Assembly (NCBI GenBank): GCA_015494385.1
Contig: WGBJ01000498.1
Location: 1 to 14,208, forward strand
DNA length: 14,208 nucleotides
Origin: Marinosulfonomonas sp.
GTDB taxonomy: Bacteria > Pseudomonadota > Alphaproteobacteria > Rhodobacterales > Rhodobacteraceae
Direction of reading: 5' to 3'
How positions within the stretch are numbered: position 1 is the first letter of the stretch; each line of letters begins with the position of its first letter. Below are positions 1-14,208 of the stretch, piece by piece. The position numbers and the translations under genes were made by a program. The notes below the pieces were generated by a model. The model had not been told where the DNA came from and made no database searches. It saw nothing but the letters and a program-made list of their open reading frames with translations.

Positions 1-731
1 AGGTGAACTGGCTTACACCAAAAGACATGGGCAAGATGGCTGGGAAATACATTAATACCACGCCGCGAAAAATTACCGAACTGGGTCTTGCCAAATCTTC
101 AGCCAAATTAGCAAACCCAATGTCAGTCATCATGTCTACCCGCGCACCAATTGGGCATCTTGCTATCAATCAAGTGCCGATGGCTTTCAACCAAGGTTGC
201 CGAGGGTTAGAGCCATCCTCTGATTTAGACGTGCATTTTCTATACTATTTCCTTGATGCGAATGTTGCCGCCTTAAATGAGCTTGGAACTGGAGCAACGT
301 TCCGCGAACTCTCTGCAAAAGCTTTGAAATCGTTTCAAATCCCCCTCCCGCCCCTCGCCGAGCAAAAGCGGATTGTGGCTGTGTTGGATCAAGCCTTTGC
401 GGGGATCGAGCAGGCCCTTGCGGCGGCCCGCAAAAACCTCGCCAACGCCCGCGAATTGTTCGAAACCACCCTGAACGCCACCTTCACCCAAAAGGGCGAA
501 GACTGGGTGGAAAAGGCTTTGGTCGAATTTTGTGAGAAAATAACAGTTGGCCATGTTGGCTCTATGGCCGCAAAATACAAAGAAACTGGAATCCCGTTTT
601 TACGATCCCAAAATGTTCGACCGTTCAGAATTACGTTGGAAGGTGTGAAATTCATCGATGAAGAGTTTAATCTGTTTTTGAAAAAATCACTATTGAAGCC
701 CGGCTATGTAGCAATTGTTAGAACTGGGTAA
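1..731 (+). CDS. hsdS: Type I restriction-modification specificity subunit HsdS, 5'-partial and C-terminally truncated
   Basis: HsdS gives type I restriction-modification complexes their DNA sequence specificity through two target-recognition domains (TRDs) joined by conserved helices. The frame is open at the window's left edge, and residues are counted from the codon at position 3, which need not be a start. Visible in order are the end of TRD1 (NWLTPKDM, STRAPIGH, FNQGC), the conserved central region PLPPLAEQKRIVAVLDQAF with its long helix (about residues 114-162), and the first part of TRD2 (about 168-242). The protein ends at YVAIVRTG. Intact family members continue from this motif through the rest of TRD2 and a second conserved helix, so the C-terminal part is missing. 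None of the three downstream frames resumes HsdS-like sequence, which argues for a deletion or rearrangement junction near 728 rather than a simple frameshift. The central region is visibly GC-richer than the two TRDs, as expected from TRD exchange. It is probably non-functional, although half-size HsdS proteins that dimerise do exist. No hsdM or hsdR is in the window. Confidence 0.85.
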   Translation, partial: VNWLTPKDMGKMAGKYINTTPRKITELGLAKSSAKLANPMSVIMSTRAPIGHLAINQVPMAFNQGCRGLEPSSDLDVHFLYYFLDANVAALNELGTGATFRELSAKALKSFQIPLPPLAEQKRIVAVLDQAFAGIEQALAAARKNLANARELFETTLNATFTQKGEDWVEKALVEFCEKITVGHVGSMAAKYKETGIPFLRSQNVRPFRITLEGVKFIDEEFNLFLKKSLLKPGYVAIVRTG

Positions 732-952: not shown

Positions 953-3900
953 CTACGGACCGTCTTTAGGTTTGCTCCCCGAGCCACCGATGGTGATCGA
1001 CACGTTCGTGCAGCCAAGCAATGGGTGACGGGGGCGACCATTCGGGCAGGCCTGACGGGGTTTTACACAGCCCTTGCCGCTTACATATTCCGTGCCTTTG
1101 GGGCAGGCGGCGGGTTTCGGGGCCGGTGTATCGGGTTTGCCGGATGATGTTGCGACGCATCCTTTGCCTGCCACAAAACGGGTGCCGCGCACGCAAGCGC
1201 AGGCGTTGTTCCCTTTTCTGACCATGCGCGCATACCGGCAGACGCATTCCCCGTCGCGGGCAACAGTTGTGTCGCGGTTGCATTGCAACAACGGTTTCGG
1301 CATCGGGGGCAGGTCCACGGTAACACATTCTTTTGCCTGGTCTGTTGCTGTGGACAGCCCCAGTGCGGCAAAAAGTGTTGTGTCGATTTTACCGGTGGGC
1401 TCCAGCCCGAGCTGCTGTTGCAGCAACCGCAGGCCGGCGCGGGTTTTGCGCCCGGGTTTGCCATCGACGGGGCCACCGTCAATCCCGCGCATCTGCATGA
1501 TCCGTTGCAGGATCATTGCCTGATCGCGCAGGTTATCCGTCACACCCAGCGAGGCACAGTTTTCAAACTGCCCACCCTGCGGCAGACCTGGCAGTGTCAG
1601 GGTCACATCCAGCCCGCCGGTTTCACCAACCCCCAGGATTGCCCGATCTGTCTGGCAGGTGCTGCCATCAGCAGAGGCCGGATTGCAGGACCAGCCGTCA
1701 CCGGTTCCGGTTAGGCGCAACGGGGCCGGTTTGCCGAATATCTCGCTTAGGACCAGGGGACCTGAAAATGCGCCGTTGCCCCGGTTCGCCACTTCGAGAC
1801 GGAAATCGCAAGTATAGCTTTGCGATGCCCGGTTGACCGAACAGGGGCCGTTGGCGGTTTTGCTCAGCACCAGCCGAGGCACACCATCACCGGTTGGTAA
1901 TTGTATGCGCTGGCCTTGCTCATAGGTTTCGACATCACAGTTGTTGGTCAGATATGCAGCGGTATTCCCCCCGTTTGTGACCCAGTTCACATCCCCGCAA
2001 TTGCGCCAGGTGGTGGTTTCACCGGTATCGGGGCCAGAGATCACCACGTTGAACACCGCCGTATCGCCGGTGCCGAAATTGGCACTGTCGATGATGCAGG
2101 AGTTGTTGTTACAGCTCCAGCCGCCGTTGGGTGGTATGATACTGGCAAGGGTTCCGGTGCTGCCCGCAACCTGATGGATCATATCAATGATGCGCAGCTC
2201 GTGGGTAAAGTCATTGAGCGCCTGAACGGTGATCGTGCAGGACATCTCCAGCCCGCCGGCATTGGCAATGATCGGTTCACATTGCTTTTCTACCGTGATT
2301 TCGGGTTGCACCGGTTCCACGGCCTGTTCGCCGTGGATTGTGACACAAGCGGAATTGTTCTGTGTATTGGTTTCCGCAAGGGGATCAGGGTTGCTGCCCG
2401 AGTAGACCGCAACATTGGCACAATTTGTGCTGTCCACGGCAGGGTCGTTTACCGCAGGCCACAGGATCGCCGGCGGGTTGGCCGGTCCATCGGCGGGCAC
2501 GGTATAGCTGCAGGTCATATCGCTGCCGCTCATGGTGCAGAACCACGGGGCGGGTGCATAGGGCGCTCCGAAGAAGGTGATGCCCGATTGACCGCTGGCC
2601 GGGTCGGTAACGGTGATCACATCACCGGCCTGCAAAGATCCAACCACCTGGCTGACGTCGATGATATAGCCATGCGGCGGGATCTGGGCATTGTCCCCGG
2701 GTTCGAGCGCGCCAAGGAAATCGGCACCCGCAGCCCAGGTTTTGGCGATGGCCATATCGATTTCACCGCCGGTGTCCGTCTGGCCGGTATCATCAGGCAC
2801 ATCGAACCACACACAGGATTCACCCATCATGCCGCCCTGCAACATTTCCGTCATCTGGGGCGGGAAATTCGGTGGAGTGGCATACTGGTTGAACGAATAA
2901 TCCCCCGCTGCGATGGCGTTGCCCGCAGGCAGGCTGCGGATGTAGGCACAGTTTTCACCGCTTTCGGCCACCACCTGATTTTGCGGTGATTGCGGGGTGA
3001 TGCTTATGGTGTAGCTGATCGAGCCATTGGCCGGCAGGTTTACCGGCACCACACAAAACAGGGGATTGGCCGGCAGGTTTGCCCCGCAACCCGCTGTGGG
3101 CGGGGATATTGCGGTGATGTCGAAGGCAGGCACATTGGTGCTGTCCATCAACAGCACATTGCCGCTGAAGGGTTGATCACCGGCGCTGATGGTGATGGTG
3201 AAATCACAGGTTTCCCCGATGGCACATTGCGACGGGCCGGTTTTTTCCAGTGACAACCGCGGTGGCTGGAACTGGACTGTGGCGCAATCCTGCGAGGAGC
3301 TGCCGTCATCTGTCGCAAGCTCGACACAGTTTTCCAGACTGTAATCGCCATTCGCAAGCGCATAGGGCGGCGGCACATAGCTGACGGTGTAGGTCTGGCT
3401 TTGGCCGGCACCCAGCGACAGGGCGGCATTGCAGGAGCCGCTGTTCAGTTCTGCCGCTGTGCACAGCGGCGGGTCCATGGAAACGATACCGCCATCCGTG
3501 GGCGTGAAGGACCCGTTACCGGACGTGAAATCCAGCACATCGGAGAGCATTACGCCACCGTCGAAATTCTGGTCTGTGCTGGTGTTGGTGATGGTATAGG
3601 TGAATTCGCAAGGCTCGCCCAGATAGCATATTTCCGGTCCGGTTTTGCCGATTTCGAGTTGCGGAATATCGTTTGACCAGCAGTCCTCGGCACTGACGTC
3701 GCCGATGCTGACGCTGGCGCAGTTTTCAAAGCCGTCCGGCAGCGGGAAATCACCCGGAATATCGCTTGTTACAACCGGAATGGTCAGGGTCGAGGTCCAG
3801 TCGCTCCAGTCTGTGCCGGGGGCATCGCTTTCGGAGATGGTGCAACCGAGGTTTTCGGCGTCCGTGCCCGTGCATTGCCAGTTGTCGCCCGAGGACAGCG

Positions 3901-5443
3901 GCATTCCAAGGGTCGCCCCGCCGGATGTCAGCATCTCCCCGATGGTAATCGGGTTTGTATCCGTCGGTGCTGGCCCCTCGTAATGGACAATAATCTCGCA
4001 CCAGGGCGATTGATAGACAGGGTGGTCCGACACCTGATGGCATATCTTGTCGATTTCCAGCAGGGGGGCCTTTTCACAGGTGAAATCCTGCGGGATTTCA
4101 AGCTCGATTTCACCCAGACAGCATTTGTCCAGCCCCGGCGCACTGCCGCCGCCGGTTTCCACGGCGTCAATCAGCAGGGACAGGGTTTGGCCGGGAACAA
4201 CACCGGACAGGGCCACCAGCATCGGGTTGGAGGGATCGGGGCTGCTCAGGCCGACCCCCGATGTCTGGGATGTAACCTTTACATCATCTGCACCGAAACT
4301 GCCCGAAAGGGTGTTGGAGAGCACAACCTCGATCTGGCCGGTTTTCGTGTTGCAGGACAGTTCGGGTTCAAAGGCAAGGCATTGCACCGGTTCGGGCTGT
4401 TCGGGCAGGTCGATGCGCACACAGCTTTCCTCGATGGTGTGTGGCTCGGTGCCGGCAATTTCAAAGGTGCCATCGGCACAGTTATACAGGCCCTCGGGCG
4501 GGGTATCGGCGGGGAATGTCATGGTGACATCTATCGTCGAAGCCCCGGATGCCGGTATGTCCGACACCGGCAAGGTGCAGGCAACATCCAGTGAGCCGCC
4601 CGAAACGCTGTCGGTGCAGGCCCAGTTTTCAGTCGAGTTGATCGCGCTGACTGCTGCTGTGTTCAGGGTGAAACTGTCATTGATGGAAATTGTGCTGGGG
4701 AATGGCTCGCTTGCCTGCACGTTCAGATGGCAGGCCAGCACAAAGTCGCCGTTTTCCGCATATTCGATCGGATCGCAGATCTTCTGCACCCCGACATCGG
4801 TCAGCGGTTCGGGGTCGGGGATCGGATCATGGGGGAAATCTTCGTGTTCGGTGCAACTTGGCCCGAAGTTCACAAAGGCGTTGTCCATGTTCATGTTGTC
4901 GTCCATCTGCACATGGAAACGGTAGGTTGTATTGGCAGTCAGGGTCGTGGTGAAACTGGCCAGTGTCCAAGGATCGGTGCCCGATGTGCCACCAGGCAGG
5001 TTTACAGTTGCCGGTGCTGAAATGTCGGTGCTGCCTGTCGCATCCTTGATTGTGACAACGGCAGTCCCGTCTCTGTTGTCGCGGGTGGAAAAATAGGCGC
5101 CGAACTGCACTTCACCACTGCAAAGGGGGGTGAATTCCTGATAGAAATCATTGGAACCACCAGCAATGTCGAGGTAATGGCCCGCCCCGCCGGTGGCGTC
5201 AAAACCCGGGCCGAGATTGGCATTTTCATATGAGGTCTGTCCGCCAGGTCCGTCTACGCTGACGACATTGGACGAGTTGCCGCCGCCCAACACCCACGGG
5301 GAAATATCCCAGCCGATATGGTTGCCATAGCCGCCGGGCGGGTTCTGTTCAAAGCCGCCATTGGTCAGCACAGGGTTGGATAGTGCAACCGTGCCGAAAA
5401 ACACGCCGGAAAGGATGGTGCTGATAAAACAGGTTCTGTTCAT
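953..5443 (-). CDS. Giant secreted multi-repeat protein with DUF11-like repeats, an inserted peptidoglycan-binding domain and a Cys-rich tail
   Basis: This 1496-residue exported protein is predicted to sit in the periplasm or at the cell surface; its function is unknown. Residues 1-22 form a Sec signal peptide (FISTILSGVFFGTVALS). Residues 23-197 resemble a jelly-roll, carbohydrate-binding-like domain (NPVLTNGGFE start). About seven degenerate DUF11-like beta-sandwich repeats follow (roughly 215-347, 460-595, 596-726, 728-882, 895-1037, 1047-1175, 1189-1378). They usually open with L-x-(I/L)-x-K-x-x-x-x-x-C and close with NC(A/V)...C. A separate Cys module (355-456) lies between repeats 1 and 2. 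A PG_binding_1-like domain (about 1309-1362; LQRIMQ, PVDGKPGRKTR, LQQQLGL, TGKID) interrupts repeat 7. The tail (1388-1478) carries Cys motifs such as CPKGTEYVSGKGC. The start is supported by AAGGAG seven bases upstream. It begins one base after the stop of the propeller gene, so coupled translation is likely. The domain calls are by eye; a stalk or adhesin-like envelope role is inferred. Confidence 0.88.
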   Translation of the reverse strand: MNRTCFISTILSGVFFGTVALSNPVLTNGGFEQNPPGGYGNHIGWDISPWVLGGGNSSNVVSVDGPGGQTSYENANLGPGFDATGGAGHYLDIAGGSNDFYQEFTPLCSGEVQFGAYFSTRDNRDGTAVVTIKDATGSTDISAPATVNLPGGTSGTDPWTLASFTTTLTANTTYRFHVQMDDNMNMDNAFVNFGPSCTEHEDFPHDPIPDPEPLTDVGVQKICDPIEYAENGDFVLACHLNVQASEPFPSTISINDSFTLNTAAVSAINSTENWACTDSVSGGSLDVACTLPVSDIPASGASTIDVTMTFPADTPPEGLYNCADGTFEIAGTEPHTIEESCVRIDLPEQPEPVQCLAFEPELSCNTKTGQIEVVLSNTLSGSFGADDVKVTSQTSGVGLSSPDPSNPMLVALSGVVPGQTLSLLIDAVETGGGSAPGLDKCCLGEIELEIPQDFTCEKAPLLEIDKICHQVSDHPVYQSPWCEIIVHYEGPAPTDTNPITIGEMLTSGGATLGMPLSSGDNWQCTGTDAENLGCTISESDAPGTDWSDWTSTLTIPVVTSDIPGDFPLPDGFENCASVSIGDVSAEDCWSNDIPQLEIGKTGPEICYLGEPCEFTYTITNTSTDQNFDGGVMLSDVLDFTSGNGSFTPTDGGIVSMDPPLCTAAELNSGSCNAALSLGAGQSQTYTVSYVPPPYALANGDYSLENCVELATDDGSSSQDCATVQFQPPRLSLEKTGPSQCAIGETCDFTITISAGDQPFSGNVLLMDSTNVPAFDITAISPPTAGCGANLPANPLFCVVPVNLPANGSISYTISITPQSPQNQVVAESGENCAYIRSLPAGNAIAAGDYSFNQYATPPNFPPQMTEMLQGGMMGESCVWFDVPDDTGQTDTGGEIDMAIAKTWAAGADFLGALEPGDNAQIPPHGYIIDVSQVVGSLQAGDVITVTDPASGQSGITFFGAPYAPAPWFCTMSGSDMTCSYTVPADGPANPPAILWPAVNDPAVDSTNCANVAVYSGSNPDPLAETNTQNNSACVTIHGEQAVEPVQPEITVEKQCEPIIANAGGLEMSCTITVQALNDFTHELRIIDMIHQVAGSTGTLASIIPPNGGWSCNNNSCIIDSANFGTGDTAVFNVVISGPDTGETTTWRNCGDVNWVTNGGNTAAYLTNNCDVETYEQGQRIQLPTGDGVPRLVLSKTANGPCSVNRASQSYTCDFRLEVANRGNGAFSGPLVLSEIFGKPAPLRLTGTGDGWSCNPASADGSTCQTDRAILGVGETGGLDVTLTLPGLPQGGQFENCASLGVTDNLRDQAMILQRIMQMRGIDGGPVDGKPGRKTRAGLRLLQQQLGLEPTGKIDTTLFAALGLSTATDQAKECVTVDLPPMPKPLLQCNRDTTVARDGECVCRYARMVRKGNNACACVRGTRFVAGKGCVATSSGKPDTPAPKPAACPKGTEYVSGKGCVKPRQACPNGRPRHPLLGCTNVSITIGGSGSKPKDGP
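1358..1519 (-). other. Peptidoglycan-binding (PG_binding_1-like) domain inside the 1496-residue protein
   Basis: Residues about 1309-1362 match the PG_binding_1 pattern by eye. A first helix carries LQR, then comes the G-P-V-D-G-K-P-G-R-K-T hallmark, a second helix with LLQQQLGL, and the closing TGKIDTTLFAAL. The domain sits between the NCA strand (residues 1295-1297) and the closing ECVTVDLP strand (1372-1379) of the last DUF11-like repeat. In the other repeats this connecting loop is much shorter. It would tether this end of the protein to the cell wall. Many proteins use such domains for localisation, so this one need not imply wall cleavage. Confidence 0.75.
4076..4381 (-). other. Cys module shared with the propeller protein, copy in the 1496-residue protein
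   Basis: Residues 355-456 show the pattern C-x8-C-(N/D)-T-x-TGQ, then D-x-x-K, L-x-G-x-x-PGQT, G-x3-(D/K)-CC and a closing P-x4-C. The same pattern occurs in the same order, with nearly the same length, at the C-terminus of the 716-residue protein (residues 609-711). Five Cys positions correspond: two near the start, the CC pair and the final one. Family membership is not recognised. Confidence 0.6.
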
Positions 5444-5444
5444 T

Positions 5445-7595
5445 TTACTGCTCCTTCACTTCGCAGGCGGCTTCGGGCACGCGGAAATTGACGGTTGTGT
5501 TGCAGCAGTCATAGGGCTGCCCCGTTGACTGTTGCGCACTGTCAAAGGCGCACAGATCAATCTGGCCGGTCTGGCCAGGACTTAAACCGGTGAGCGGTAA
5601 AGTGGTTGTTGCCGGAAATGCCGTCTGGGCGGGCAGGGCGGCAATGCTGTTTGACGGGTCAATCAGTTTTAACCGGTCCAGCGCAGTCGTCGTCGGGTTC
5701 TGCGCGTTGATATCCACAACATATTGCCCCGTGGTGGTGTCGCACCGGACATCGGCGCTGACATCGGCGCAGATGGCAGGGTCATCGCCTCCGAAACACA
5801 GTGAAGGGTTGATCAGGCAAAGTACCAGAATACAACTGCCCCCCGGACACAGGTCCGGTGATGGCGGCAGGGTTTCGGGGGGAGCTGTCGTATTGTTTGC
5901 CAGCAGCGGGGGCAACATTCGCCCGCCACCGCCGCGGCATCCCAATACCTCGACATCGCCCATCCAGCCGGATCGCTGATCCTGCGGATAGGATTTGTCC
6001 TGATCCAGAAAATAGGAAACCCAGGGCGGGCTGTTGTATTCCTGACGCAAATCGACCGGCTGGGCCTGAAGGCCGTCCACCGGCAGCGCGCCGCCGGGTT
6101 TCAGTGCTTTTTCCAGATCGGACCGGTTGCGCAGTTCTTCGCCGGTTGTCCACAGGGTGTCACGGCAGGAACGCATGTCCGTGCGCCCGCGCCCGTCATA
6201 GCCCGGCCCCAATGCCAGACCGCCGGTGCCCGCGCGCCCTTGCATGGCGAAACCGGTGTCATAGCTGTTCTCCATCCAGATCCAGTCCGACGGGGTAAGT
6301 TTGGCGGCCGGATCTTTCGGGTCTTCCAGAACGAAACGGATGATGGCGGCTTCGCCAGCCTTGGCCAGTTGCTTGTAATCAAAGGCCCCCTTGCGCGGTC
6401 CGCGTTGGGCCAGCAGCATTTCCCCCCGCGCACTAAAGGCGATGTCCGAAACCTCGGAACGGGGCAGGTCTTCGGGCAGGGTCAGTTCCCAGCGCGCGGT
6501 GTCGTCCAGCAGACGGCCCGTTTTGCGGTCAATGGCAAGCGACCAGATTTCGGGCCGGTCCGCCTGACCCTGTGCAACGCTGTAATACAGCCGCCCGGCA
6601 TGCACAGCCATCCCCCAGACGCGCCGCGCATCAGTGGCAAAGCCCCATGTGTCGGGGTTTGTGCTGTCAAAGGCCGGGCCGGTGATGTCGGTTCCGGTGG
6701 TATCGGGCATGGCAACAGGGGGCAGCGTTTCGGCGGGCCGCCCGTCAACACCGTGATCCCATTGCTGCAAATCCTCGCCCTTCAGGTTCAGCCGGTGGAT
6801 CAGGCCGCTTTCCAGATCGGAAACGAACAGTTGTTCATGCGTCCGGTCATAGGCGATATTGCCAAGGCCCGGGGCGCTGTTGTCTTTGCCGTCGTGACGG
6901 ATGTTGGCAAACAGGCTGACCTGTCCGCTCATCCCGTCAACCCGCCAGACAGAACCTGGGCCTGCATCGGGGTGGGGGCCGAATTGCCCCGCCATCCAGC
7001 GCGCATCCGGCTGGCCGCGCAACAGACGGTCCGGCAGAAGATCACCGTTGGCGTCCGGCCCGACGATTTGCAGTCCGAAGGCGGAAGTGGCCGCAAGATA
7101 AAGGTCTGGTTGCGGTTTGTCGCTGAGGGCGATGCCGAACACCTGCCCGACATCGCGTGCCTTCAGCGTGTCATAGGGCAGGGTGGTGATTTCATGCCCG
7201 TTGGGGGCAAACCCCATATCGGAAATGGCGGTCAATGTGACCGACACCCCGTCAGGGTCAATGAAACGGTAGGCCACATCGGGCAGGCGCCGCGCGCCGA
7301 TTTCCAGCACGGGTTTTTCGACCGCCGTGCCCGAGAACCCGCTTGCAACAGCCGTAACACCGCGAAATAGCGGTGCAACAGGGCGGTTGTCAGGGACAAG
7401 CCGTGTCGTGCTTTGCGTCATTGGCGCAGGGGTCTGGGCCAAGGCTGTTTGCGGCAATGCAAAAACCGTGGCCGCGCCGATTACCAGACGCAAAATCAAA
7501 TCTGCCAGTTTGTTTTTTCCAGTGATGTTTGACGTATTCGTAACGGTTTTAAACGCAATTGAGCCGCGGGAATCCCGCGCGTTCAAAGTATTCAT
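5445..7595 (-). CDS. Secreted beta-propeller-like protein with C-terminal Cys module, function unknown
   Basis: This is a 716-residue exported protein. Residues 1-29 are polar; 30-53 form a signal peptide core ending ALPQTALA before QTPAP, so cleavage is expected near residue 53. Residues about 75-560 contain repeated short strand motifs typical of six- or seven-bladed propellers (FGIALSD, GNIAYD, LFVSDLESGLIHRL, VWGMAVHAGRLYYSV, VSDIAFSARGEMLLAQ). This is a fold guess from pattern, not a family match. A Gly/Pro-rich linker (554-585) leads to a Cys cluster (583-609). Residues 609-711 are the Cys module also present in the downstream 1496-residue protein. The start has GGAGAG at 7603-7608, seven bases upstream of the ATG. 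A later start would cut into or shorten the signal peptide. It is the first gene of a two-gene operon. A ligand-binding or scaffold role at the envelope is inferred; no catalytic motif was recognised. Confidence 0.85.
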   Translation of the reverse strand: MNTLNARDSRGSIAFKTVTNTSNITGKNKLADLILRLVIGAATVFALPQTALAQTPAPMTQSTTRLVPDNRPVAPLFRGVTAVASGFSGTAVEKPVLEIGARRLPDVAYRFIDPDGVSVTLTAISDMGFAPNGHEITTLPYDTLKARDVGQVFGIALSDKPQPDLYLAATSAFGLQIVGPDANGDLLPDRLLRGQPDARWMAGQFGPHPDAGPGSVWRVDGMSGQVSLFANIRHDGKDNSAPGLGNIAYDRTHEQLFVSDLESGLIHRLNLKGEDLQQWDHGVDGRPAETLPPVAMPDTTGTDITGPAFDSTNPDTWGFATDARRVWGMAVHAGRLYYSVAQGQADRPEIWSLAIDRKTGRLLDDTARWELTLPEDLPRSEVSDIAFSARGEMLLAQRGPRKGAFDYKQLAKAGEAAIIRFVLEDPKDPAAKLTPSDWIWMENSYDTGFAMQGRAGTGGLALGPGYDGRGRTDMRSCRDTLWTTGEELRNRSDLEKALKPGGALPVDGLQAQPVDLRQEYNSPPWVSYFLDQDKSYPQDQRSGWMGDVEVLGCRGGGGRMLPPLLANNTTAPPETLPPSPDLCPGGSCILVLCLINPSLCFGGDDPAICADVSADVRCDTTTGQYVVDINAQNPTTTALDRLKLIDPSNSIAALPAQTAFPATTTLPLTGLSPGQTGQIDLCAFDSAQQSTGQPYDCCNTTVNFRVPEAACEVKEQ
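5451..5456 (-). promoter_or_regulatory. Ribosome-binding site of the 1496-residue gene, inside the end of the propeller gene
   Basis: AAGGAG lies within the last codons of the 716-residue gene, seven bases before the next ATG. Stop and start are separated by one base. Ribosomes ending the first gene can therefore reinitiate directly, giving linked synthesis of the two secreted proteins. Confidence 0.7.
5463..5771 (-). other. Cys module shared with the giant protein, copy in the propeller protein
   Basis: Residues 609-711 carry C-x8-CDTTTGQ, D-x-x-K, L-x-G-x-x-PGQT, G-x3-DCC and P-x3-C in the same order and with nearly the same length as residues 355-456 of the 1496-residue protein. It is C-terminal here and internal there, consistent with a mobile module that could mediate pairing or anchoring. 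Confidence 0.6.
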
Positions 7596-8124: not shown

Positions 8125-8622
8125 ATGGTCTTAACCCGGGAATTCACCAAACCGTTTGCGGCGCTGCTGTTCTTCTGGATATTGCTGAACGGAACGCTGG
8201 CCCCCGATACCCTTCTGATCGGGGTGGTGGCGTCATTCGCCATTGTCTGGTTTTTGCGCGAAAGCATGTCGTTCCTGAACGAATTTCGCGCCACACCGCA
8301 GGCCTTTATCGCGGCCTTTAAATACACCGGCTATTTCCTGAAGGAATTGGTGAAATCCAACATCGCGCTGGCGCGGGTTGTGTTGTCGCCGGACCTGCCG
8401 ATCAATCCGGGCATCGTTAAGGTGCGCACCCGTTTGAAAAGCAAAATGGGGCGGCTGCTTTTGGCCAACTCGATCACCCTGACCCCCGGCACCCTGACCG
8501 TCGAGATCGAGGGCGAATATCTGTACATCCACTGGGTCAATATTGAATCTGACGACATCGACGCGGCGACCGAAAGTATCGTCGCCGGTTTCGAGAAATA
8601 TCTAGAGGTAATCTATGGCTGA
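8125..8622 (+). CDS. mnhE: MnhE/MrpE-family subunit (MbhA/MbxA-like) of a membrane complex
   Basis: This 165-residue membrane subunit belongs to the MnhE family found in Mrp Na+/H+ antiporters and as MbhA/MbxA in archaeal membrane-bound hydrogenase and sulfane reductase. The N-terminus holds two hydrophobic helices (about 11-45; FFWILLNGTLAPDTLLIG), followed by an amphipathic segment. The cytoplasmic domain carries the family signature ANSITLTPGTLTVEIEG and the YIHWV strand. Its length is normal for the family. The start ATG lies just after a hairpin that hides its ribosome-binding site. It is the first gene of the operon and overlaps mnhF by 8 bases. The family assignment is firm; whether the complex moves Na+, H+ or both cannot be told from this subunit. 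Confidence 0.95.
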   Translation: MVLTREFTKPFAALLFFWILLNGTLAPDTLLIGVVASFAIVWFLRESMSFLNEFRATPQAFIAAFKYTGYFLKELVKSNIALARVVLSPDLPINPGIVKVRTRLKSKMGRLLLANSITLTPGTLTVEIEGEYLYIHWVNIESDDIDAATESIVAGFEKYLEVIYG

Positions 8623-8875
8623 TTTTCTGGTATATCTGGCCGCTGTTCTGGCGGGCGGGGCATTTTTGCTTGCGCTGTTTCGCTTCTTGCGTGGCCCATC
8701 GCCGGTTGACCGTGTGGTCGCCTTTGATGTGCTGACCGTGATCGCCATCACCGGCATTATTCTGGCGGCTGTGGTGGCTGACAGGGTGATCTATCTGGAT
8801 GTGGCGCTGGTCTATGCGTTGTTGTCGTTCCTCGGGGTGATCGTGGTTGCCCGTTATCTGGAAAGGGGCGCGTGA
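8615..8875 (+). CDS. mnhF: MnhF/MrpF-family subunit
   Basis: This is an 86-residue protein with three membrane helices (about 4-24, 34-56, 60-82). It shows the MnhF signature RGPSPVDRVVAFDVLT after helix 1 and YLDVALVYALLSFLG in helix 3. The conserved Asp residues in these motifs (D32, D38 and the Asp of YLDVAL) lie in or near the membrane and are part of the ion path in solved Mrp/MBH complexes (family knowledge). GAGG upstream supports the ATG at 8615. It overlaps the mnhE end by 8 bases and the next gene by a few bases, so it is co-translated. Confidence 0.95.
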   Translation: MADFLVYLAAVLAGGAFLLALFRFLRGPSPVDRVVAFDVLTVIAITGIILAAVVADRVIYLDVALVYALLSFLGVIVVARYLERGA

Positions 8876-9219
8876 TGGGGCCGTTATTCGATATTCTGGG
8901 CGGTCTGGTTCTGGTGGCCGGCACAGCGTTTTTGCTGCTGGGCGGGCTGGGTCTGAACCGGATGCCCGATGTGTTCAACCGTATTCAGGCAGGCACCAAG
9001 GCGACGACGCTTGGCACCATCCTGACGCTGACCGGCATTGCCATGATGCACCCCGACTGGGCGCTGAAACTGCTGCTGATCGGCATGTTCCTGCTGTTCA
9101 GCAACCCGCTGTCCTCGCAGGTGCTGGCACGGGCGGCGGAACGCACCCACGTTCATAAAACCAGCCGCACCCGTATTGACCGGTTTGAACAGGATCACGA
9201 TCAGGGGGAAGAAGCATGA
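8875..9219 (+). CDS. mnhG: MnhG/MrpG-family subunit
   Basis: This is a roughly 114-residue protein with three membrane helices (about 5-25, 40-57, 62-80). It carries MnhG hallmarks: LGGLGLNRMPDVFNRIQAGTK, the TLGTILTLTG helix and FLLFSNPLSSQVLARAA. A charged C-terminal tail (TSRTRIDRFEQDHDQGEE) faces the cytoplasm. The ATG at 8875 overlaps the mnhF stop by one base (TGATG) and is six bases from AAAGGGG. A GTG at 8872 would add one residue but sits only three bases from that site, so the ATG is preferred. Its stop overlaps the next ATG by four bases. Confidence 0.93.
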   Translation: MGPLFDILGGLVLVAGTAFLLLGGLGLNRMPDVFNRIQAGTKATTLGTILTLTGIAMMHPDWALKLLLIGMFLLFSNPLSSQVLARAAERTHVHKTSRTRIDRFEQDHDQGEEA

Positions 9220-9473
9220 GCACGCTGACACTATTGATGGCCGTTCTGGCGGCGGTGGCAATGCTGGGGGGCGCGGCGGTGGCCGTGGCCAGCAAAAGCA
9301 CACCGGTTGCCATTCTGGCGGCGGGGCTGGTCAGTCTGATGGCCTCGGTTTTGTTCGTGCTGCTGGCCGCGCCCGATGTGGCAATGACCGAAGCGGCGAT
9401 TGGCAGCGGGCTGACCACCTTTTTGTTTTTCTTTGTGCTGGGCCGCGTGAAAGAGGAGCAGGATGATGACTAA
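9216..9473 (+). CDS. DUF4040/MbhD-like membrane subunit
   Basis: This is an 85-residue protein with three hydrophobic helices (about 4-24, 29-50, 57-77). The segment AAPDVAMTEAAIGSGLTTF is the hallmark shared with MbhD of archaeal membrane-bound hydrogenase and with the C-terminal part of MnhA/MrpA. In normal Mrp operons this element is fused into the large MnhA protein; here it is a separate small subunit, as in mbh/mbx-type operons. The acidic residue in PDVAMTE is conserved in the family. The C-terminus is short and acidic (EEQDDD). It overlaps mnhG by four bases and the next gene by eleven. Confidence 0.9.
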   Translation: MSTLTLLMAVLAAVAMLGGAAVAVASKSTPVAILAAGLVSLMASVLFVLLAAPDVAMTEAAIGSGLTTFLFFFVLGRVKEEQDDD

Positions 9474-10170
9474 CCGATTGCTGACTGTGGCGTTTCTGGC
9501 GGGTCTGGCTGTGATTTTCATCCAGTTGCTGTCGGGCTATGCGCCTGACACCGACCTGAACCTGACTGCCAGCTATTACGCCAACCAGACCGCGCCGGAT
9601 CTGGGCGCGCAGAACATCGTGACCGGCATTATCGTTACCTATCGCGGGCTGGATACACTGGGCGAAGTCACCGTGTTGTTCCTGACCGCTGCCATCGTGG
9701 CGCTGGTGCTGGTGCATGGCCGCGCATTAGAGGCCGAACGCGGCCCCAAACCTTTTCCCGCCGGTGAATTGCTGCAAACAGGCAGCCGCCTGCTGGCGCC
9801 GATGATCCTGCTGCTGGGCATCTATGTGTTCGTGAACGGCCACCTGACACCGGGTGGCGGGTTTCAGGGCGGGGCGATCGTGGCCTCGGCCGTTCTGCTG
9901 CTGTTGCTGACCGACCCGATGCGCCGCTTCTCGCATCGCCTGATCTCGCGGATCGAATCCACGGCCGGATTGTTGTTCGTGGCAATCGGTCTGCTGGGCC
10001 TGCTGTTTGCAGGCGGATTTCTGGATGCGCGGTTCTTGCCGCAGGGCTGGTTCGGGGCGCTGTTTTCCGCCGGTGCCATCCCGCTGATCTATTCCCTGAT
10101 CGGCCTGAAGGTGGGGGCTGAATTCAGCTCGATGTTGCTAAGCCTGTCCGAGACGGAGGATGAAAAATGA
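9463..10170 (+). CDS. mnhB: MbhE-MnhB fusion subunit
   Basis: This 235-residue protein has two parts. Residues 1-85 match the MbhE type: one helix, then an external segment (YAPDTDLNLTASYYAN), then NIVTGIIVTYRGLDTLGEV with its R-G-x-D-T-L-G-E core and a second helix. Residues about 105-229 are an MnhB/MrpB domain with the signature GHLTPGGGFQGGAI and four helices. In Mrp the first part belongs to the MnhA C-terminus; in archaeal MBH it is a separate subunit. Fusion to MnhB resembles what is recalled for mbx operons. Two adjacent ATGs (9463, 9466) follow GAGGAG; the first was kept. It overlaps both neighbours. The subunit likely forms part of the ion-translocating core next to MnhC. Confidence 0.92.
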   Translation: MMTNRLLTVAFLAGLAVIFIQLLSGYAPDTDLNLTASYYANQTAPDLGAQNIVTGIIVTYRGLDTLGEVTVLFLTAAIVALVLVHGRALEAERGPKPFPAGELLQTGSRLLAPMILLLGIYVFVNGHLTPGGGFQGGAIVASAVLLLLLTDPMRRFSHRLISRIESTAGLLFVAIGLLGLLFAGGFLDARFLPQGWFGALFSAGAIPLIYSLIGLKVGAEFSSMLLSLSETEDEK

Positions 10171-10529
10171 GCCTTGTAACCCTTGCAATGGCGGGCGGTT
10201 TCGCGCTGATCCTGATTGGATTGTATGGCGCGCTGAACAACCGCAATATCCTGCGCATCATCATTGCCTTTACCCTTGCCAATACGGGCGTGCATCTGGT
10301 GCTGGTGGCGGTGGGATACATGCCCGGACGCACAGCCCCCATCCTTGACGCCGCAGTGCCGGTTGATCAGGCAAACGCCCTGATTATCGACCCTGTGCCA
10401 CAGGCCCTTGTTCTGACCGCGATTGTGATCGGCCTTGGGGTAACTGCCCTGATGCTGGCCTATGCGCTGCGTCTGTTCGCCAGCCGTCACACGCTGGATA
10501 TTTCCAAATTCACGGAGTTGAAATGGTGA
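10167..10529 (+). CDS. mnhC: MnhC/NuoK-like subunit
   Basis: This is a 120-residue protein with three helices (about 4-22, 29-52, 72-98) and the family signature PVPQALVLTAIVIGLGVTA, in which PQALVLTAIVI is nearly invariant. It is homologous to NuoK of complex I and links the NuoH-like subunit to the pump subunits. The helix 2 region (ILRIIIAFTLANTGVHLVLV) has no Glu where NuoK has its key membrane Glu, as in other MnhC proteins. The start overlaps the previous stop by four bases (ATGA), with GGAGG upstream. The stop overlaps the start of the large pump gene. Confidence 0.94.
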   Translation: MSLVTLAMAGGFALILIGLYGALNNRNILRIIIAFTLANTGVHLVLVAVGYMPGRTAPILDAAVPVDQANALIIDPVPQALVLTAIVIGLGVTALMLAYALRLFASRHTLDISKFTELKW

Positions 10530-13500
10530 TGCCAAATATCATTCTTATCATCGCCACCGGTCTGGGTGCGGCATTTCTGTTGGGTCTTTTGCGCGAGGAA
10601 AAGCGCCTGAGCGCCTATCTGATCACCCTTGCCGCCCTTGCCTTCATGAGCCTGATTTCAGGGCTGTGGCTGATTGCTTTTGCTGGCGGAGCTGCCCCGA
10701 TCGAGGTGACCACAGCGGGCACGCCTGCGCCCTTTGCCATCAACTTTAAAATGGGTCTGGCCGAGGCCGCGTTGCTGTTGCTGATCAATCTGACGGCGCT
10801 GTTGTCGGCCATCTATATGCAGCAAACCATGCTGCGGCTGGGGCGCCGTATTATGGCGGTGTTCCTGATTGCGGTGATGGCGGTATCGGGCATCATCCTG
10901 ACCCGCGACGTGTTCAACCTGTTTGTGTTCCTTGAACTGGTGGTGATCGCCAGCGGTGGTCTGGTGCTGATGTCCACCGACAAACGCGCGCTGGGGGCCG
11001 GGTTCAAATACCTGATGGTTTCGGAATTTATCACCGTGTTCCTGCTGATCGGTATCATCTTTGCCTATCACGCCAGCGGCAGCCTGAATATCGACACGAT
11101 GGCGGCCTCTGACATGCTGGCCAAACAGGGCGGAGCCTTGGCGTTTTTCCTGATCCTGATCGCCCTGATTGCCGAGTTGAAACCCTTTCCCGCCAATGGC
11201 TGGGCGCTGGATATCTACGAATCCGCACACCCCGGTTTTTCGGCGCTGTTTTCCGCCGTCTTTGCCACCGGCGCGTTGTTCGCCGTGGACAAGGTTCTGC
11301 TGATGGGCGGCACCACATGGTTGCCACTGGCAACCGGCATCGGGCTGTTGACCTTTGTCGCCTCGAACATCATGGGGCTGGCGCAACATAATGACCGCCG
11401 CTTGCTGGGCTATTCGTCCATCGCGCAGGTTGGTCTGGTGTTGGCCATTATCGGCCAGCGCGAGGTGCTGGGCGACAGTTACCTGTTCGTCGCCGGCGGG
11501 ATCCTGCTGGCCCATGCGGTGGCCAAGGCCGGTCTGTTCTGGATGTCCGGCATGTTCGAGGCCCGCGATTTGAAGGACTGGACCGTGCTGCGGCAAAAAC
11601 CGCTGATGGTCGGTATCTTTATCACCTTCATCGCCATGCTGACGGGTCTGCCGCCATTTCCCGGGTTCTATGCCAAATGGGAACTGGTCCACGGGCTGAT
11701 TGCGCACAATCAATTCTGGCTGGTTGCGGTGATCCTGTTTGGCGCGCTGATCGAGGTCACCTATCTGATGCGCTGGTTTGGCTATGTGATCAAACGTGAC
11801 GCCCCGCGCTATACCGAGGACACGCCATTCCACAAGGAACTGGTGGTGGTTCTGGCCGCTGCTGCGGGCTGGGTTCTGGCCTATGTCTGGGGCGAACTAT
11901 CGGCCTATCGCAACCTGCTGTCGCTGGCAGAGGGCAACCTGCTGGTGGTTCTGCCGCTGATGTTTGCATTGCTGTTCTTTATGATCGACGGCTTGCCCGC
12001 GCGGATCAAGAACATCATCGCGATTGCCGGAATGGTGGCCTATTTCATTGCCAGCTATTCCAGCTATGATCCGCTGCAACTGATCTTTGGCTCGATCATC
12101 CTGCTGGGTGGCGCGGTGATCATGCTGGCCAGTTTCCATGCCGAGGGGCGGCGCACGGGGTTCTACCCGTCCGCCATGCTGATGTATGCCGGATTGGCAC
12201 TGCTGATCATCGCTGAAAACAGTTTCGCGTTTTTCGCCGCGTGGGAGATGCTGACAATCGGCTCTTACTTCCTGATCTTGCGGGGCAAGGCGTCGGAACC
12301 ACACGCGCTGTCCTACATCATCTTTTCACTGGGCGGGGCGTTTGCCATCCTGACCGGCTTTGCGCTGGCGGCGCACGGGCAGGCGCCGTTCGAGATCGCC
12401 TCGCTGGCCGATGTGCGCGAAGATGTGGCCCCCTATGTGTTCATCCTGCTGGCTGTCGGCTTCATGACCAAAACCGCCGCCATCGGACTGCACATCTGGC
12501 TACCCGGTGCCCATGCCGAGGCCGAAACCGATGTGTCGCCCATGGTATCGGGTGTGTTGCTGAAGGCTGGCCTGTTCGGGCTGTTCACCCTGCTGATGAC
12601 CATGGGTCGCCAGCATCTGGGACCGGTTGACCTGACGCTGGTTCTGCTGTGGATCGGTGCGCTGACCGCCCTGCTGGGCAACCTGATGGCCGCCTTTCAG
12701 GAGGATGCGAAACGCTTGCTGGCCTATTCCTCGATCGGGCAGATGGGTTATGCGCTGTTTGGTTTGGCGCTGATGAACAAACTGGGTTGGCTGATGGCGC
12801 TGTTGTTCGTGATCAACCACTACATCTATAAATCCATGTTGTTCCTGTCGGTTGGCGGCGTGGCCAAACGCACCGGCACGCGGGCGATGTATAAAATGGG
12901 CGGGCTGATTGCCCTGATGCCGCTGTCCTTCATCGCCGTGATGATCGGGATTATCGCCATGTCGGGCGTGCCACCGCTGTCGGGTTATGGCGGGCGCTGG
13001 GTTTTCTATAACGCGATTATGTCGGCCGAACACCGGCTGCCGATGATCCTGATCTTCCTGTCGGGTCCAATCGGGTTCCTGTATCTGTTCCGGCTGGTGC
13101 ACACGATATTCCTGGGTCAGCTAAAGGATGAACACCGCCGCCTGAAAGAAGCGCCGTTCTGGATCATCCTGCCGCAAATGATCTATGTGCTGTTCCTGCT
13201 GGGCTTTGCCGTGGTGCCCGGATTGGCGTTGCGTCGGGTGGATGCCTATCTGACCCGGTTCTTCCCGAATGAATTCGGACTGGACTGGACCGGCCCAGCG
13301 ATTACCAGCGAATACGGCTATTGGGCGCCGGTTTCGATCATGATTGTGATCGGCGTGATCTTCTGTCTGGTGCTGGGGTGGATGTTGTTCCTGAACCGTA
13401 ATGCCCAGAAGGTAAAACAGTTCAATATCGTCTATTCGGCGGAACGGCCCTACCGGCCCGAAACCACCCACTATGCGTGGAACTTCTATGCACCTTATCG

Positions 13501-13681
13501 CAAGGCGCTGGGGTTCATGGTGCAACCCTTTGTCACCAACTTCTGGAACGGCATCGCCACGGCGTTGCATAATCTGGGCGACTTTAGCCGGCGCCTCTAT
13601 ACCGGCAATGGCCAGACCTATGCCTTCCAGATGCTGATCTTTGTTGTGATGGCCTATCTTGTCTCGAGGGGGATGATCTGA
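10523..13681 (+). CDS. Fused double antiporter-like pump subunit (two MnhD/NuoL/M/N-type modules; MbxH-MbxH'-like)
   Basis: This 1052-residue protein is about twice the usual length of MnhD/NuoM. It holds two complete Proton_antipo_M-type modules, about residues 1-490 and 500-930. Module 1 shows E138 (VFLELV), K220 (ELKPF), RRLLGYSSIAQVG (292-304), K335 (HAVAKAGLF) and K385 (GLPPFPGFYAKWE). Module 2 shows E575 (AWEMLT), K650 (FMTKTA), H657 (LHIWLPGAHAEAE), K681 (SGVLLKAGLFG), RLLAYSSIGQMG (731-742), K770 (NHYIYKSMLF) and GVPPLSGYGGRW with R825. These are the Glu/Lys positions of the proton channels in complex I pumps. By eye, module 1 has T249 where module 2 has K681. The C-terminus (about 955-1052, ending YTGNGQTYA and a last helix) resembles the lateral-helix end of NuoL/HycC proteins. 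The ATG at 10523 has GGAG at 10514-10517; an ATG at 10529 (TGATG) is an alternative. No stop interrupts the join, so the fusion is genuine in this sequence. Confidence 0.92.
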   Translation: MVMPNIILIIATGLGAAFLLGLLREEKRLSAYLITLAALAFMSLISGLWLIAFAGGAAPIEVTTAGTPAPFAINFKMGLAEAALLLLINLTALLSAIYMQQTMLRLGRRIMAVFLIAVMAVSGIILTRDVFNLFVFLELVVIASGGLVLMSTDKRALGAGFKYLMVSEFITVFLLIGIIFAYHASGSLNIDTMAASDMLAKQGGALAFFLILIALIAELKPFPANGWALDIYESAHPGFSALFSAVFATGALFAVDKVLLMGGTTWLPLATGIGLLTFVASNIMGLAQHNDRRLLGYSSIAQVGLVLAIIGQREVLGDSYLFVAGGILLAHAVAKAGLFWMSGMFEARDLKDWTVLRQKPLMVGIFITFIAMLTGLPPFPGFYAKWELVHGLIAHNQFWLVAVILFGALIEVTYLMRWFGYVIKRDAPRYTEDTPFHKELVVVLAAAAGWVLAYVWGELSAYRNLLSLAEGNLLVVLPLMFALLFFMIDGLPARIKNIIAIAGMVAYFIASYSSYDPLQLIFGSIILLGGAVIMLASFHAEGRRTGFYPSAMLMYAGLALLIIAENSFAFFAAWEMLTIGSYFLILRGKASEPHALSYIIFSLGGAFAILTGFALAAHGQAPFEIASLADVREDVAPYVFILLAVGFMTKTAAIGLHIWLPGAHAEAETDVSPMVSGVLLKAGLFGLFTLLMTMGRQHLGPVDLTLVLLWIGALTALLGNLMAAFQEDAKRLLAYSSIGQMGYALFGLALMNKLGWLMALLFVINHYIYKSMLFLSVGGVAKRTGTRAMYKMGGLIALMPLSFIAVMIGIIAMSGVPPLSGYGGRWVFYNAIMSAEHRLPMILIFLSGPIGFLYLFRLVHTIFLGQLKDEHRRLKEAPFWIILPQMIYVLFLLGFAVVPGLALRRVDAYLTRFFPNEFGLDWTGPAITSEYGYWAPVSIMIVIGVIFCLVLGWMLFLNRNAQKVKQFNIVYSAERPYRPETTHYAWNFYAPYRKALGFMVQPFVTNFWNGIATALHNLGDFSRRLYTGNGQTYAFQMLIFVVMAYLVSRGMI

Positions 13682-14208
13682 TGACTTTTGAATGGATGAA
13701 AATCCCCTATTCACTGCTGACCCTGTTCATCGTGTTGAACTATGGTCTGCTGATGACCGCGATCATCGCCAAAATCGGCGCGCGGGCAGGGCGCAGGATC
13801 GGGATACCGTTTTACCAGAACTATATCGACCTGCTGAAAAACTATGCCCTACGCAGCAAAATCACGCATGGCTATATGTTCTACCTCGGGCCGGTGTTCC
13901 GGCTGACCGGCGGCATTGGCCTGCTGTTGTTCGTGCCGACGATCTATGGCTCGGAAATGTTCTCGAACCTGTCGTTCTCGGGTGATCTGATCCTTGCGCT
14001 GTATTTCATCTTTTTCGGCACCCTTGGCATGGCGCTGGGGGCTGGCGAAAGCGGATCACCCCATGCGGCCATCGGTATTTCGCGCGGGCTGTCACAGGTG
14101 ACCATGGCTGAATTGCCGCTGACACTGGCGGTGTTTGCCATCGCGCTGCAATACCAAACCCTGTCGGTGACCGAAATCGTCGCCGCGCAACAGGGCGGTA
14201 TCCTGAAC
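13681..14208 (+). CDS. NuoH/complex I subunit 1-like membrane subunit (MbhM/MbxM/HycD-like), 3'-partial
   Basis: The frame stays open for 176 residues to the window's right edge. Residues 8-30 are helix 1 (PYSLLTLFIVLNYGLLMTAI). They are followed by ARAGRRIGIPFYQNYIDLLKN, which matches the R-x-G-P-x-x-QP-x-x-D-x-x-K loop of NuoH and group 4 hydrogenase subunits. Later, GTLGMALGAGESGSPHAAIG and ISRGLSQVTMAELPLTLAV match the conserved G-S-x-x-A-x-x-G-x-x-R and E-L-P-L motifs. NuoH anchors the peripheral electron-transfer arm to the membrane and passes conformational energy to the pumps. NuoH-like subunits are absent from Mrp antiporters, so this gene shows that the operon encodes a respiratory-type complex. 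The ATG overlaps the previous stop by one base (TGATG). Confidence 0.93.
   Translation, partial: MTFEWMKIPYSLLTLFIVLNYGLLMTAIIAKIGARAGRRIGIPFYQNYIDLLKNYALRSKITHGYMFYLGPVFRLTGGIGLLLFVPTIYGSEMFSNLSFSGDLILALYFIFFGTLGMALGAGESGSPHAAIGISRGLSQVTMAELPLTLAVFAIALQYQTLSVTEIVAAQQGGILN

Follow-up and report, generated by a model that had tools for sequence, protein, structure and literature searches.

Among solved structures, the closest relative of the system treated here is the archaeal MBS complex of Pyrococcus furiosus, which according to PMC8415708 is composed of the subunits A (MrpE-type), B (MrpF), C (MrpG), D (MbhD) and G (MrpC), the subunit E, in which MbhE is fused to a MrpB-like part, the pumps H and H', and the subunits M, J, K, L and N. 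In the account given in PMC7684303, the proximal cluster of MBS is catalytic and is bound by C28, C93 and C123 of MbsJ, C25 being too distant, while MbsL retains two of the four NiFe cysteines (C85 and C385), a double mutant of which stays active, and lacks the complex I residues H38 and Y87 (Nqo4). Bacterial systems in print include the mbx operon of Thermotoga maritima, described as arrived by transfer (PMC2246101), the putative Mrp-Mbx complex named in the tubeworm symbiont Endoriftia (PMC11636981) and a six-gene Hyf/Mbx-like cluster without NiFe ligands from more than 300 bacteria (PMC4053972). The present analysis concerns a stretch of 14,208 nucleotides (hereafter, the window; the complete contig C498) from a draft genome of Marinosulfonomonas sp., in which positions 8125 to 14208 harbour the front part of an operon. 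Judged by its sequence, this operon encodes an MBS/MBX-type ion-translocating complex with a Mrp-like membrane arm, a NuoH anchor and NuoB/C/D-type subunits. The unusual part of this complex, as read from the sequences, is a fusion of NuoI with a GltD-like flavoprotein, which is complete only in relatives of the window, and the whole would, rather more probably than not, serve sulfur oxidisers as an ion-translocating NAD(H):sulfane-sulfur oxidoreductase.

From position 8125 to the end of the window, the listing of open reading frames (ORFs) contains eight overlapping ORFs on the plus strand:

8125..8622, plus strand: MrpE/MnhE-type subunit (MbsA); PF01899, 144 bits
8615..8875, plus strand: MrpF-type subunit (MbsB); PF04066 (MrpF_PhaF), 60 bits
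8872..9219, plus strand: MrpG-type subunit (MbsC); PF03334 (PhaG_MnhG), 81 bits; TIGR01300, 79.9 bits against a cut-off of 63.1
9216..9473, plus strand: MbhD-type subunit (MbsD); PF13244, 58 bits
9463..10170, plus strand: MbhE-MrpB fusion (MbsE); PF20501 and PF04039 (MbhE and MnhB)
10167..10529, plus strand: MrpC-type subunit (MbsG); PF00420 (Oxidored_q2, MnhC), 77 bits
10523..13681, plus strand: fused double antiporter-like pump of 1052 aa; two Proton_antipo_M stretches, the N half MbsH-like and the C half MbsH'-like
13681..14208, plus strand: NuoH/MbsM-type membrane anchor, truncated at the contig end; NADHdh (PF00146), 69.7 bits

This is the order A-B-C-D-E-G-(H+H')-M of MBS, the E fusion included. 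The first-pass annotation of this DNA had claimed a membrane arm of the Mbx type, and indeed seven of the ORFs bear the Pfam families it had named and the eighth belongs to PF00146; the double pump it had described does possess two Proton_antipo_M stretches, but as one fused ORF rather than two genes. It had also predicted that NuoB-, NuoC-, NuoD- and NuoI-like genes would follow to the right of the window, and these were found on contig C21 of the same draft genome (G000; 540 contigs totalling 3.04 Mb, with a completeness of 91.9% and a contamination of 4%). On its minus strand, C21 contains the rest of NuoH, followed by NuoB (PF01058), NuoC (PF00329), a NuoD-like protein (PF00346) and the start of a NuoI-type protein, whose reading frame has entered a GltD-like domain by the time the contig breaks off. 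Between C21 and the last 151 bases of the window (14058-14208), 142 bases are identical; the nine mismatches leave the protein unchanged and suggest that the draft genome is a mixture of strains. The two contigs are not one continuous sequence, and we infer their join from this overlap and from the identical gene order in relatives. The window, C21, the dsr and RuBisCO contigs, and C457, which carries a separate complex I cluster (NuoH by Pfam; nuoG, I, J, K, L, M and N read from ORFs), are alike in GC content (0.557-0.581) and tetranucleotide usage (correlations of 0.87-0.93), which lends weak support to their belonging to one genome, as no foreign genome was compared.

The subunits were assigned by comparing sequences with solved structures, MBS being represented by entry 6u8y. 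The NuoD profile scored 329 bits with MbsL, 221 with Nqo4 of complex I and 158 with MbhL. Likewise, NuoB matched MbsJ (219 bits, next 130), NuoH matched MbsM (137 bits, next 51, by sequence comparison only), the C half of the pump matched MbsH' (188 bits, next 142) and the NuoI part of the fusion matched MbsN (80.5 bits against 46). For pump residues 471-1048 the best solved structure was chain X of 6u8y, and chain H of the same entry was the top chain with its best stretch in the N half. A quick maximum-likelihood tree of NuoD-like proteins, a check the first-pass annotation had proposed, comprised 111 rows, including 81 of the type described here (type I) and five of complex I. The type-I rows, the window's genome included, stood together with a support of 98 (100 with the second copy of genome G183), all MBX rows were separated from the complex I rows with a support of 100, and the window's copy grouped with a Hyphomicrobiales bin (support 94); the deeper order of the MBX rows is unsure, since the program warned of long branches there. 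The window and C21 together hold the MBS/MBX subunit set with its Mrp-like subunits and two pump parts, and a stand-alone Mrp antiporter operon was set aside in view of NuoB, C, D and H. Among the three identities initially considered for the complex, the group 4 hydrogenase fell away, the sulfane-type reductase came closest and the Ehr complex, which is an umbrella word, also fits: the complex is group 4-like, is devoid of NiFe ligands and has Mrp-like subunits, as in the definition given in PMC6349859.

A profile of 14 NuoD-like proteins, searched against a collection with one genome per species (84,980 species), retrieved 187 stretches encoding a relative, the best 80 of which are the basis of the locus counts. 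Carriers with a genus name include Magnetovibrio, Thiothrix, Thiohalocapsa, Halochromatium, Lamprobacter, Sedimenticola, Sideroxydans, Gallionella, Rhodoferax, Rhodobium and Celeribacter, in addition to many bins without one; Thiothrix caldifontis, Magnetovibrio blakemorei and Thiohalocapsa marina are among the carrier species. The 12 core genes were matched without exception in 54 of the 80 loci, where their order never differs and they share a single strand; 25 of the 26 incomplete loci begin inside the operon, with the first match at most 175 bases from the stretch start (our own count). The pump is encoded by a fused ORF of at least 1000 aa in 58 of 68 extracted copies, nine of the ten shorter ones being open at the 5' end. 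The complex is, in short, real, widespread and conserved. Locus L028, of a Thiorhodovibrio bin, has the part from NuoB to the ferritin, but in the ∼4.4 kb upstream of NuoB neither NuoH nor a pump was matched.

According to a script rule, a gene of the rubrerythrin family (PF02915 in the Magnetovibrio copy) is located directly downstream of the operon in 65 of the 80 loci and upstream in three; by the same rule it was unmatched despite room in five and cut off in seven. The three loci with an upstream match are L041, L045 and L058, of Chromatiaceae. As a guess, the rubrerythrin-like protein might shield a cluster that is sensitive to oxygen. Clustering of the 501 ORFs lying outside the operon gave no recurrent neighbour hinting at the substrate: no cluster covers more than nine loci, and the two largest, read by eye as a sensor protein (nine loci) and an ABC ATPase (seven loci), do not suggest a partner. 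In Magnetovibrio blakemorei (L010, 13540-21165), the operon is followed by genes that by eye look like those of NiFe hydrogenase subunits.

The conservation of residues is informative with regard to the active site. In all 73 aligned NuoB proteins the ligand positions C28, C93 and C123 are conserved, and the position of C25, which is not a ligand, is occupied by Gly (69) or Ala (4). All 81 NuoD-like proteins share the motifs R(I/V)CVPEPD and (L/F)H(T/I)YPPEIER and keep the cysteine equivalent to C85 (RIC in 66, RVC in 15). Inspection of NuoD for its NiFe cysteines, which had been advised at the outset, showed that this cysteine of R-(I/V)-C is the only one of the four kept, in 81 of 81 proteins, the other three positions holding residues other than those of the MbhL motifs. 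The position of Nqo4 H38 is Thr (HPGIT) in all 81 proteins and that of Y87 is Val (RICV/RVCV). Since neither residue is kept, a quinone is an unlikely substrate as far as the sequences can tell, and because the three cluster ligands are retained while the NiFe and quinone residues are absent, a sulfur-active proximal cluster resembling that of MBS would be the simplest reading. In the 58 aligned pumps, with residue roles and helix labels taken from complex I, the Glu of transmembrane helix 5 (TM5) type and the TM12-type Lys are invariant in both halves. Also invariant are, in the N half, the Lys of TM7 type and, in the C half, that of TM8 type; in the C half the TM7-type Lys varies, and the N half has no TM8-type Lys.

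The NuoI-GltD fusion is encoded by an ORF of at least 560 aa in 72 of the 80 loci; six of the eight shorter ORFs run off the contig end and two (L025 and L030) do not. It was present in all three MBX types inspected, the last two of which are represented by one locus each. When the whole fusion was compared with solved structures, the top matches (257 bits downward) were flavoprotein chains of the GltD/NfnL kind, which align to residues ∼148-600, and the Magnetovibrio fusion contains a 4Fe-4S dicluster domain (the NuoI part), Fer4_20 and pyridine-nucleotide/FAD domains. It was reported that in DsrL the motif YRR accompanies NADP(H), whereas its loss accompanies NAD(H) (PMC7596348). None of the 72 aligned fusions has YRR (ALE in 64, AME in 4, CLE in 3 and TRK in 1), and by analogy with the related DsrL the use of NAD(H) is predicted. 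The fused GltD part thus suggests NAD(H) as the electron donor instead of the ferredoxin of MBS.

In the mechanism proposed, electrons would travel between NAD(H) and the proximal cluster by way of the FAD and Fe-S clusters in the GltD part and of both NuoI clusters. At the proximal cluster, bound by three cysteines of the NuoB-type subunit, sulfane sulfur would be reduced or formed, as polysulfide or as a persulfide of low molecular weight, and this redox step would be coupled to the movement of H+ or Na+.

To place the complex in its metabolic context, 50 carrier genomes were picked from the 80 for their longer contigs. A soxB match over the cut-off was detected in 42 of the 50 carriers against 23 of 200 genomes sampled from the phylum, a dsrA match in 42 (44 at E 1e-50) against 51 of 398, and RuBisCO in 39 against 63 of 200; in the latter control sample, a single family (f21) accounts for 41 of the 63 positives by our own count. 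The 398-genome draw itself includes six genomes with a MBX-type NuoD, all of which have a dsrA match at 1e-50, compared with 47 of the 392 others (Fisher p 4e-6; when the window's genome is left out, 3e-5, and 2e-4 if only type I is counted). These six represent few lineages, G231 and G235 belonging to one family. One of the six, G502, has the second MBX type. Among 176 sampled genomes of the window's order, only the window's own genome reached a score typical of MBX (860 bits); the runner-up, with 229 bits, scored as complex I does. The window's genome also contains a piece of dsrA and a RuBisCO gene; by eye, neighbouring genes on the dsr contig look like additional dsr genes, and the DsrL-like one matches the GltD query at 35%.

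Several observations weigh against an NAD(H):sulfane-sulfur oxidoreductase of sulfur oxidisers. The control samples were drawn from the phylum and were not matched for relatedness, and the count in the 398-genome draw is not independent of that in the 50 carriers, as L042 and L077 apparently come from G316 and G251, to judge by their identical dsrA coordinates. Neither soxB nor dsrA exceeds the cut-off in four of the 50 carriers, one of which (G206) has pieces of soxB, and 11 carriers have no RuBisCO match. In the window's genome, the dsrA piece, cut short by the contig end, stays under the cut-off for that reason, no soxB match was obtained at 1e-100, and the remainder of the GltD half was not found in the bin: other contigs matched at 29-43% identity only and were read as other flavoproteins or ferredoxin-type proteins. 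The position of MbsL C385 is Tyr in all 81 NuoD-like proteins. The NCBIfam cut-offs of complex I families are exceeded by the NuoD-like protein (PRK06075, 395 bits against 360) and by NuoB (two NuoB cut-offs), as is to be expected of homologues. Finally, textbook potentials allow only ∼10 kJ/mol per two electrons from NADH to sulfane sulfur, versus ∼83 from NADH to ubiquinone.

Taken in reverse, the same small difference would mean that electron transfer from sulfide to NAD+ costs perhaps one or two ions, as opposed to four or more for complex I in reverse. Within the NAD(H):sulfane-sulfur oxidoreductase reading, the direction toward NAD+ reduction, driven by the ion gradient, is considered slightly more likely, taking slightly over half of the credence given to that reading; it fits the carriers, which are mostly sulfur oxidisers with RuBisCO. 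The NADH of lithoautotrophic sulfur oxidisers is usually explained by reverse flow via quinone and complex I. We tentatively put forward that sulfur oxidisers with rDsr may possess a quinone-free reverse electron transport from sulfide or persulfides to NAD+, much cheaper than the quinone-complex I route. If true, this would be a direct and testable alternative source of NADH in these organisms, and the MBS family would reach beyond sulfur reduction in archaea and take in mesophilic sulfur oxidisers.

The opposite direction, that of a NADH-dependent polysulfide/sulfane reductase, is nearly as likely, although it too must be called tentative. It would save energy with stored sulfur as the acceptor under anoxia or in the dark, or would supply sulfide to rDsrAB, and sulfur storage is common in organisms with rDsr. 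The archaeal MBS runs in the sulfane-reducing direction, with ferredoxin (PMC7684303), mbxA of T. maritima is up 4.36-fold after elemental sulfur (S0) (PMC9431562), and the Endoriftia paper cites S0 reduction by other organisms for its putative Mrp-Mbx complex, which is located near genes of the reductive tricarboxylic acid cycle and not of the Calvin-Benson-Bassham cycle (PMC11636981). However, with NADH the energy yield per electron pair is low, and the presence of RuBisCO in 39 of the 50 carriers implies a need of reductant for CO2 fixation.

It is improbable that the partner of the complex is a protein or another thiol carrier, such as a DsrC-type trisulfide or a heterodisulfide: the complex is associated with dsrA, yet no carrier-like gene recurs beside the operon, and in MBS the cluster is housed in a hydrophobic chamber admitting substrates of the size of polysulfide (PMC7684303). 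Even less credit can be given to an alternative complex I, i.e. a NADH:quinone oxidoreductase, which has the NCBIfam cut-offs in its favour but is contradicted by the changes of H38 to Thr and Y87 to Val, both residues being missing in MbsL too, and by the complex I cluster that the genome already has on C457. As for a group 4 NiFe hydrogenase, the MBH-like subunit plan and the MbhL matches (158 bits) hardly count against the lack of the two CxxC pairs and the substitution of three of the four NiFe cysteine positions, which, incomplete in 81 of 81 proteins, rule it out for practical purposes.

The search with MbsL additionally revealed a second proteobacterial type, with a NuoD-like protein of ∼380 aa that is 45% identical to the one described here. 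It occurs in tubeworm endosymbionts (Lamellibrachia and Escarpia symbionts) and Chromatiaceae, among others, and its NuoD-like protein ends in SLDACPPEVDR, so that C385 is kept. The second-type relative in G502 likewise comes with parts of NuoI and GltD, followed downstream by a ferritin-like match. In this locus (L122, G502:C10, 7485-11315) the NuoI and GltD matches fall in different frames, the GltD and ferritin-like ones fall in one, and the sequence is possibly misassembled; one TAA was counted in the NuoD match, which the ORF list puts at its upstream edge. A third, divergent type is represented by L123 (G183:C1, 4210-14766), a full set (42-68% identity) that includes the fusion, starts in the order E-F-D-G and has no ferritin match; its genome (G183, also the source of L016) bears a type-I copy as well. 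Among the best 120 relatives of the L123 fusion, most show ∼70% identity.

Outside the operon, the window encodes a cut specificity subunit of a type I restriction-modification system (3-731, plus strand; PF01420) and, on the minus strand, a 1496-aa protein (953-5443), whose blocks look repeated by eye and whose sole Pfam match is the peptidoglycan-binding PF01471, and a 716-aa protein without a Pfam match (5445-7595). The latter gene adjoins the former upstream in the same direction, and the two are possibly a pair.

Compared with the MBS of P. furiosus, the complex has the same set of subunits (A-B-C-D-E-G-H-H'-M-J-K-L-N, including the MbsE fusion), the motifs RICVPEPD and PP(E/D)I(E/D)R and the three cluster cysteines, and it likewise has no NiFe site. 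It differs in that H and H' are united in one chain, NuoI is fused to a GltD-like flavoprotein, the counterparts of MbsJ C25 and MbsL C385 are absent, a rubrerythrin-like gene is found downstream in most loci, and the context is that of rDsr/Sox. The putative Mrp-Mbx complex of Endoriftia is also a proteobacterial MBX and, in view of the matches in the Lamellibrachia and Escarpia symbionts, would be of the ∼380-aa second type; the MBX of T. maritima, a further homologue, is induced by S0 (PMC9431562). The passages available on Sideroxydans ES-1 (PMC8788666) contain no mention of Mrp, and among the passages met in the open-licence literature searched there was none on a NuoI-GltD fusion or on a link of the complex with rDsr. 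Complex I shares the NuoH/B/C/D/I homologues and the pumps; in contrast to it, there is no NuoE/F/G-type gene among the 13 genes of the operon, the quinone residues are lost and Mrp-like subunits are present. DsrL and NfnB, described as soluble enzymes of the GltD family, have a similar FAD/NAD(P)H domain with Fe-S clusters, but theirs has no NuoI subunit of a membrane complex attached. A link between Mbx and pyridine nucleotides is not a new idea, since an older view held Mbx of P. furiosus to be a ferredoxin:NADP+ oxidoreductase (PMC6349859). The MBS/MBX family is thus known and a proteobacterial member is in print, and what is new is the built-in flavoprotein module with its predicted use of NAD(H).

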